Shown here in pieces: positions 50,027-52,047 of a DNA stretch of 52,331 nucleotides. Position 1 is the first letter of the stretch. The number at the start of each line of letters is the position of its first letter. The position numbers were made by a program, and so were the translations under genes. Below the pieces are notes generated by a model. That model saw only the letters and a program-made list of their open reading frames with translations, was not told where the DNA came from and searched no databases. Source of the stretch: an uncultured Paraprevotella sp. (lineage in GTDB: Bacteria; Bacteroidota; Bacteroidia; Bacteroidales; Bacteroidaceae); contig CALUIV010000020.1 in the NCBI GenBank assembly GCA_944320775.1, positions 1 to 52,331 on the forward strand, written 5' to 3'.

Positions 50027-50801
50027 ATTATAAAGGCTTTTTCTGCAAAAATATTATTTTTTATGTGGATTGCGTTGCGCGAAAACAAAAGTTCATGTTA
50101 TTTTTATCTTTGAAACTGATTTTTTAGATTCTGTCAAAATGAAACCTTTTTTATGGTGTACACAATCATTATGTTTGTTTTCAATTACTTTTTTGCATAA
50201 ATACTTTATTTTATCATGTATAGAAAATCTTGAAAAGTTAAAGATATTTTTGTTTCGACTTTTAATTTTAACAATTATTTGCACTTTTGTCACGTCTAAA
50301 TGGTCGTCTGAGGTATTTTTCTAGCGTATTTTTAGAGGAGTACAGAATAATGAGTTGCCGATCTCTGTAATTTCTTTTCCTCAACTGATTTGAATCAGAT
50401 CGTCATCTCTCTGTTTTTTTAATGCACAAATTATATTTTTTGAGCCAGATTATTCTAGATGATTAGTTTAATAAATATTTGTAGTTGATTAAATATTAAT
50501 ATGATATAATAAATTAGGGCTTCGTATACTCTTAAAAAGACAAATATGTATGAGAGTGCAGGGAAAAAAGCCCGAATTGGTAGTTTGTTTTTAACAGAAT
50601 GACAGATTGATATATGAGGGAAATATGACAACTTTTGTATAAACTTTAAAGAAGTCTATATGGAATAATTGTAAGTATCAGCATCGTGTAGCTTTTTATG
50701 TAGATGCTTTACATGTTATACTATATTTGATCTTACTTGTGAAAACGGTAATTTAGAAAGACCATGAATGCTTTTATCAACAAACTTTTCTATGAACCTG
50801 A

Positions 50802-50948
50802 AATCTGTTGAGTTCGGCTGGGTTGACTGTACAGCAAATTTCAGAACAGTTGCAATTTGCCGATCAGGCTTCGTTCAGCAAGTTTTTTAAGCGACATGCA
50901 GGTGTGTCGCCACAGGGTTTTCGTCAGAAAGCTTTGATGCCGGAGTAA
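50802..50948 (+). pseudogene. Remnant of an AraC-family transcriptional regulator (C-terminal HTH only)
   Basis: A 48-codon open stretch, ending with TAA at 50946-50948, encodes the second helix-turn-helix of an AraC/XylS protein: LTVQQISEQLQFADQASFSK, then FFKRHAGVSPQGFRQ. This is a near-ideal family signature (SFSKFFKRHxGxSPxxFR). A stop codon (50799-50801) lies immediately upstream in frame, and no start codon or N-terminal part was found in other frames nearby. The gene therefore appears to be a 5'-deleted relic. Confidence 0.85.
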
Positions 50949-51066
50949 AAGTGTGTATTTCCTATTTTATTATATAAATGTTATACGTGAAATCAGGAAT
51001 ATAGACATTTTTTGAATTTTGCTATAAAAAATCTACAACATGGAAACATTGTTTTAAATAAATGCT

Positions 51067-51074
51067 TATCTTTG
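51067..51074 (+). promoter_or_regulatory. -7 box upstream of the TIR-Sel1 gene
   Basis: TATCTTTG matches TAnnTTTG. Transcription from it would begin near 51082 and leave a leader of about 160 bases before the ATG at 51241. No -33 TTTG lies at the right distance. Confidence 0.4.
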
Positions 51075-51240
51075 GTAGTATAACGGTTGCTAAGAGCCTT
51101 TCATGAACCTTTTGGGAAGTTTAATACTTGAAAAGAAGAAATATAACTAATGATTAATGCGTAAGTGACCAGGTTGATATATTGTGAAGGTTCACATAAA
51201 AGCAACAAATCTGTTCCATTTAAAGACTAAAAATTTATTT

Positions 51241-52047
51241 ATGGATACATCATATGATATTTTTATCAGTTATTCTACCAAAGATAAATCTAAAGTTTCG
51301 GATATAATCAATGCTTTTAAACAGCAAGGGTATAAAGTATGGATTGATAAAGAAGGTATAAGGGGGGGAGATCCTTCATTTAAATCCACTTTGGTAAAAG
51401 CCATTGAACAGTCTAAAATCGTTGTGTTTTTTTCTTCTTCCAATTCCAACTCATCAAAGTGGACAGAAAAGGAAATAGGCATAGCTATTAGTAAAAATAA
51501 ATATATAATTCCCGTAAAACTTGATGAATCACTCTATGCAAATTCTGTACAGTTTGATTTAATAAATTATGATTTTATTGATTTCACAAGTTGCACGAGA
51601 CGAGCATCAGAAGAAGGTAAGCTTTATTCAAGTCTGAATAAAGTTTTAGGGAATGAAAGGAAAGAAACACATAAAGATATAAATAAACAAATTTTGAAGA
51701 TTGCAGAATCTTTTAGAAAAGGCAATGGAGTAGAAAGGGATTATTCTTTTGCAGCTTTATTGTACGATAAAGCTGCAAAACAAGGAAATCCAACAGCTCA
51801 ATGCAATCTTGCCACATTATATTATAATGGGTTAGGGGTTGAGAAAAATGTTCCATTAGCAGCTACATTATATAGAACAGCAGCTAATGGTGGAAGTAGT
51901 CTGGCCATGTATAAATTAGGAAAGATGTATTTTAAAGGAGATTTTGTTGCACAGAACTATAACCAGGCGATTCTTTTGTATCAACAAGCTGCTTCTTTAG
52001 GAAATGAACAAGCAAAAAAAGCATTATTGGAACTGAATGTATTCTAA
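51241..52047 (+). CDS. TIR domain-Sel1 repeat protein
   Basis: The ATG at 51241 gives 268 residues starting MDTSYDIFISYSTKDKSKVS, the first strand of a TIR domain; an in-frame GTG at 51184 would add 19 residues ahead of it. The TIR domain (about 1-130) contains FISYS, VWIDKEGIRGGD (BB-loop region) and W74-TEK-E78-I, which aligns by eye with the catalytic glutamate motif W-x-x-K-E of NAD-cleaving TIR enzymes such as SARM1. Residues 151-268 are about three Sel1-like repeats (AALLYDKAAKQGNPTAQCNL, AATLYRTAANGGSSLAMYKL). There is no signal peptide. A cytoplasmic NADase or signalling protein in phage defence is plausible but inferred. GC content is far below that of most of the window, suggesting transfer. 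Confidence 0.88.
   Translation: MDTSYDIFISYSTKDKSKVSDIINAFKQQGYKVWIDKEGIRGGDPSFKSTLVKAIEQSKIVVFFSSSNSNSSKWTEKEIGIAISKNKYIIPVKLDESLYANSVQFDLINYDFIDFTSCTRRASEEGKLYSSLNKVLGNERKETHKDINKQILKIAESFRKGNGVERDYSFAALLYDKAAKQGNPTAQCNLATLYYNGLGVEKNVPLAATLYRTAANGGSSLAMYKLGKMYFKGDFVAQNYNQAILLYQQAASLGNEQAKKALLELNVF

Follow-up and report, generated by a model that had tools for sequence, protein, structure and literature searches.

The window analysed here is the entire contig C20 of an uncultured Paraprevotella sp. (52331 bases; GenBank CALUIV010000020.1), and close to its end lies a gene that joins a TIR domain to Sel1 repeats, in the following termed the TIR-Sel1 gene (Table 1). The frame is intact from ATG to stop and encodes 268 residues; an alternative GTG start at 51184 would give a protein of 287 amino acids. 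Pfam matched both parts far beyond chance, with TIR_2 over residues 7-116 (E 1.1e-23) and Sel1 in three stretches (E 2.4e-24), and gave weaker matches to ThsB_TIR (1.1e-9) and TIR (8.7e-9). An initial annotation, made from the sequence alone, had described a 268-residue protein of a TIR domain and about three Sel1 repeats, and the frame and the Pfam matches bore this out. Its two motifs were also present as written, FISYS at residues 8-12 and W74-x-x-K-E78-I as W74-T-E-K-E78-I. The chain opens directly with a TIR strand (MDTSYDIFISYS), and neither a signal peptide nor a membrane helix was seen by eye. The low G+C content reported earlier was confirmed: it was 31.8% for the gene against a mean of 42.6% in bases 1-50000, where 0.8% of the 807-base stretches were equally low.

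Table 1. Coordinates of the TIR-Sel1 gene, its parts and its surroundings in the window, and of two RyR genes on another contig of the same genome.
Feature	Position	Strand	Basis
TIR-Sel1 gene, 268 residues plus stop	51241..52047	+	frame reading, Pfam
TIR_2 domain, residues 7-116	51259..51588	+	
Linker helix and three Sel1 repeats, residues 145-268	51673..52044	+	
Codon of Glu78, presumed catalytic	51472..51474	+	invariant in alignments A1, A2, A3; aligns with residue 77 of 8j7s_B
Decayed C-terminal remnant, presumably AraC-type, 48 residues, one frame	50802..50948	+	frame reading
Stretch up to contig end	52048..52331	.	
RyR domain fused to apparent two-helix membrane part and RCK-like domain	L167 (contig C44) 446-2953		
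Second RyR protein	L167 (contig C44) 3808-4950		

The Glu78 had been assigned to the catalytic glutamate context of NAD-cleaving TIR enzymes, and the alignments and a structure model agree with this assignment. The residue was invariant in all three TIR alignments, was located in helix 73-84 of the predicted model and aligned with residue 77 of 8j7s_B. Both features looked for in a catalytic TIR NADase, a TIR fold and a conserved Glu in the alpha-C helix, were found. The best sequence-profile matches of the TIR part were SPARTA, Cat1, TIR-1, AbTir and SARM1, and the fold comparison of the model matched the TIR domains of SPARTA and SARM1. A search with a 38-residue fragment for a direct SARM1 alignment gave no match.

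The contig stops 284 bases past the stop codon, so the earlier description of the gene as standing alone rests on the upstream side only. The upstream stretch 50027-51240 had a G+C content of 29.5%, and besides the extension of the TIR-Sel1 frame itself the frames listed in it were only two, encoding 84 and 66 amino acids; the 1.2 kb directly upstream of the gene are without long frames. A decayed AraC regulator had been proposed as neighbour. The remnant frame was indeed present and is presumably AraC-like. Among the ten upstream neighbours scanned with PADLOC, an ABC-F protein matched mad3 (E 5.6e-46) and many other ATPase models, which we read as generic ATPase similarity. The window contains no RyR gene. 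A comparison with an empty site was attempted and given up: homologues of the neighbouring glycosyltransferase were present in 15 of the 17 genus siblings, but an empty site was not definable because the ABC-F gene and the remaining window order were absent beside the glycosyltransferase in the nine regions fetched.

Among the Bacteroidaceae, 108 of 399 genomes matched the TIR-Sel1 protein at E 1e-12. Eighteen of them, the own genome included, had a match to the TIR half among the matches listed, which extend to an E-value of about 3e-14, and the other 90 are here called Sel1-only. At E 1e-22 two other genomes matched in the sample of the order (n = 393) and none other in that of the phylum (n = 395). 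The 17 genus siblings had no TIR-half match at E 1e-3, their matches starting at residue 129 or later. No close relatives were confirmed on viral contigs, and no plasmid or phage record covered 80% of the TIR-Sel1 query. From one genome scan 80 of 166 confirmed TIR loci were kept, plus a few further stretches, and 12 different TIR-Sel1 proteins were collected, including the one under study. A TIR tree of 120 rows was calculated after removal of duplicates, of sequences shorter than 85 residues and of two rows with long branches. The Sel1 label required 9 changes on this tree, of which at least 7 were imposed by branches with good support (in a bootstrap that had not yet settled). TIR and Sel1 thus appear to have been joined, or parted, several times, and judged from the tree the TIR-Sel1 proteins are not one family.

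Further TIR genes were found near 6 of the 11 other TIR-Sel1 genes (L071, L074, L105, L124, L168 and L170). This search of the fetched DNA used our protein as query, so that divergent TIRs may escape it, and L144 and L136 are short stretches. The gene order in L170 was TIR, RCK-type protein, putAbiC-domain protein, TIR-Sel1, ClpP and kinase-AAA; in L168 the TIR-Sel1 gene has a vWA-TIR gene beside it and, about 5 kb further, an nSTAND1-WD40 gene. Tandem TIR genes at L045/L074, L044/L073, L071, L093 and L124 differed in their C-terminal parts (FGE-sulfatase, Sel1 and others), as if sensor tails had been exchanged on a common TIR base. The TIR-Sel1 genes of L139 and L144 had a common local order with apparent imidazolonepropionase and rRNA methyltransferase genes (names by eye).

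RyR is the ryanodine-receptor domain, and bacterial RyR proteins are cousins of the muscle ryanodine receptor. Among the matches listed, RyR was present in 14 of the 18 Bacteroidaceae genomes with a TIR-half match (all except G025, G034, G405 and G413). It was present in 13 of the 90 Sel1-only genomes, namely in none of the 16 best-scoring ones and in 13 of the 74 others; G179, which carries RyR, ranks just after those 16. The difference gave a Fisher p of 2.5e-7, and of 8e-7 when the genome of the window was left out (uncorrected for relatedness), and it stands with the full Sel1-only control. We concluded that RyR accompanies the TIR half rather than Sel1. Overall, 43 of 329 Bacteroidaceae genomes contained RyR, with 73 matches (manual count). 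RyR frames were found in 17 of the 80 TIR loci, where a rough manual estimate by density predicted about 0.1 match in 80 stretches of 20 kb, the loci being partly shorter than 20 kb and partly from other families. Among seven further stretches RyR was found in one, L167. The similarity to our protein was somewhat higher in the loci with RyR (17 against 63 loci, Mann-Whitney p 0.011), which made up four of the best five.

TIR and RyR matches were located on one contig in 5 of the 13 other genomes that carried both, spaced by about 0.9 kb (G171), 2.6 kb (G284), 4.8 kb (G245), 20 kb (G260, a one-contig assembly) and 21 kb (G159). In the remaining 8 and in the window's genome they were on different contigs, among the matches listed. 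Two matching genomes of the order, G641 and G705, had no RyR. Nine RyR-free control regions are weak controls, because RyR was absent from all 17 genus siblings.

The window's genome contains two RyR genes (PF02026, E 1.2e-33 and 7e-31), its only RyR matches, both on contig C44 and about 7 and 9 kb from a TIR-FGE gene. The rest of this cluster consists of a PrsW protease, a sigma-like gene (TIGR02937, 33.6 bits, under the cut-off of 42.9) and FGE and LRR genes. A relative of the RyR-fused, apparent membrane/RCK protein folds like the gating rings of plant DMI1/CASTOR. Four RyR ligand residues (spacing 0, +3, +25, +42) were kept in 20 of 28 RyR frames of the TIR loci. In the C44 cluster, one RyR copy carries Thr where the His that contacts the phosphate would be. 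Two other contigs of the genome also carry TIR genes near their ends. On C42 (L166, 10379-11649) the gene was apparently broken across two overlapping frames, and on C25 (L165, 571-1128) a small TIR gene with a C-terminus that by eye was SEC-C-like was accompanied by DNA that, also by eye, resembled an insertion sequence.

According to the available text of a 2026 preprint, phage RyR domains bind or cleave TIR-made cyclic ADP-ribose (2'/3'cADPR) (PMC13232231). That text covers phage and animal RyR and a B. thetaiotaomicron structure but does not treat RyR genes of bacteria within TIR clusters, and among the matches listed it was the only work on RyR together with TIR or Thoeris. The phage protein RyDEP described there has a RyR domain that binds or cleaves 2'/3'cADPR; it shares this type of domain with the present RyR proteins, and its four ligand residues with the 20 frames mentioned above. 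RyDEP is a phage counter-defence protein, whereas the RyR genes reported here are bacterial, lie within TIR clusters and in one case are fused to an apparent membrane/RCK protein.

The TIR-Sel1 protein itself resembles several known systems in part. Its TIR domain matches ThsB_TIR and ThsB models of the Thoeris TIR signal makers (ThsB/ThcB), but the ThcB4 score was 42.4 bits against a cut-off of 220, the PADLOC ThsB matches cover only the TIR part, and the protein carries Sel1 repeats. No ThsA-type partner was found among the ten upstream neighbours, and on the downstream side the contig ends. The TIR-APAZ/short pAgo system SPARTA was, among solved TIR structures, the best match in the profile search (E 7e-14) and one of the top matches by fold; unlike it, the 268 residues comprise TIR, linker and Sel1 without APAZ, and no Argonaute match was present among the ten scanned neighbours. 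To TIR-SAVED of CBASS only residues 4-78 match (positions 13-87 of 404 in PDLC02012), and SAVED is absent. Avs5, as far as described in the available text (PMC12931631), likewise unites an NADase effector and a C-terminal TPR/Sel1-type sensor in one chain; it consists of Sir2 and a STAND ATPase, neither of which appeared in our Pfam scan, whereas here TIR joins Sel1 directly. In the available portions of two surveys, TIR and FGS (FGE-sulfatase) are among the effector domains of ternary and TRADD-N/FGS conflict systems (PMC7159879, PMC8195603) and Sel1 is named among those of iSTAND systems (PMC7159879), but neither a TIR-Sel1 fusion nor a linkage to RyR is described in those portions. The phrases TIR-Sel1 and Sel1-TIR were not found in the literature searched, although a prior description may exist.

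We favour, at slightly better than even odds (about 0.55), that the protein is a cytosolic sensor-enzyme in which Sel1 gates a TIR that cleaves NAD+ or makes an ADP-ribose signal. The TIR enzyme would be kept inactive until a phage or stress protein, as the trigger, is bound by the Sel1 solenoid, upon which the TIR domains would assemble and act. The protein could then kill by NAD+ drain, or it could signal through cyclic ADP-ribose to a receptor whose gene lies elsewhere; this second route is worth testing because RyR co-occurs with the TIR half. The initial annotation had proposed a single-gene abortive-infection or signalling module with trigger recognition by Sel1, and this is supported in part. 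In our reading the intact frame, both folds and the conserved Glu78 in its helix are established by computation, while we infer catalysis, self-assembly, Sel1 sensing and a function in defence against phages or stress.

Several results weigh against the sensor-enzyme. Five of the 11 other TIR-Sel1 genes (L133, L136/L171, L139, L144 and L169) were located among genes that by eye were ordinary, with no second TIR gene in the fetched DNA. RyR was found within the fetched DNA of only 2 of the 11 loci (L071 and L124), that of L168 being about 21 kb away. In the PADLOC scan, none of the ten upstream neighbours had a match that we would count as a defence gene. Of the NCBIfam TIR models even the best, Retron_TIR (49.8 bits against a cut-off of 600) and the ThcB4 mentioned above, scored far under their thresholds. 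The mutual placing of the TIR and Sel1 domains is unsure because the predicted template-modelling score (pTM) was 0.56, and since the fusions arose repeatedly, function is not simply transferable between them. Finally, the available text of a review assigns Sel1 repeats in some conflict systems to peptidoglycan association and not to sensing (PMC7159879).

Alternatively, the gene might come from a multi-TIR cluster and be stranded or in decay after the loss of its partners, with no present function, its frame being open by chance or because of recent arrival. The AraC-like remnant and the 1.2 kb without long frames directly upstream, the position of the two other TIR genes near contig ends with the apparent break in that on C42, and the six relatives near further TIR genes all fit such an origin. 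The frame and the motif residues are intact, however, and the five relatives without a second TIR gene in the fetched DNA suggest that on-site partners are not always needed; we consider this explanation unlikely. Less probable still is a non-enzymatic protein in which the TIR part would serve for assembly and Sel1 as a scaffold, linking other proteins and making no signal, as the glutamate of enzymatic TIRs is invariant among the relatives and the best profile matches are the five proteins named above. A secreted TIR mimic damping innate signalling of an animal host appears very improbable. TcpB, which we take to be a TIR protein of this kind, was among the matches, but the chain starts directly with the TIR strand and by eye lacks a signal peptide. 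Moreover, none of the upstream neighbours looked by eye like a secretion gene, a kind of gene for which no dedicated search was made, and most of the TIR relatives belong to Bacteroidales of the rumen and gut.

Beyond the sensor-enzyme, the RyR results point tentatively to a TIR to RyR to ion-channel pathway in Bacteroidales, with our protein as one input acting in trans on the C44 RyR cluster; as a whole we regard this as rather unlikely. TIR proteins whose sensor tails (Sel1, FGE and others) can be exchanged would make a cyclic ADP-ribose signal upon infection, chromosomal RyR-domain proteins would receive or remove it, and RyR fused to a 2TM-RCK channel of the DMI1/CASTOR type would open the membrane. 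The tie of the TIR-Sel1 protein to such a pathway would come from co-occurrence, not from adjacency of RyR to its gene. Against the RyR proposal, the label 'RyR or channel nearby' was unclustered on a tree of 110 TIRs (32 changes against a shuffled mean of 33.9, with 134 of 500 shuffles as low). No TIR subclade is thus a RyR subclade, and the place of our protein in the tree adds no support.

The gene alone is one further sensor-TIR fusion in a large and growing class, and the wider RyR pattern weighs more than the single gene. If bacterial RyR domains, one of them joined to a CASTOR-like channel protein, receive TIR-made cyclic ADP-ribose, the gating of a RyR-bearing channel by this molecule would be testable in a small bacterial system. 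RyR modules would then be tied to TIR immunity outside animals, as a bacterial counterpart of the debated animal cyclic ADP-ribose-ryanodine-receptor axis.

At the contig end, a repeat was considered and rejected, since the last 292 bases had no other copy in the genome save for two short matches (16 and 21 bases). The end folded no better than shuffled sequences (z 0.30), and the RNA family search gave one sub-threshold miRNA match, which we took as chance. An inverted repeat of 18 out of 19 bases was noticed at 51066-51084 and 51269-51287. The arm within the start of the TIR codes for SYSTKDK and the other lies about 180 bases upstream; the repeat could be a relic, an inversion site or chance.
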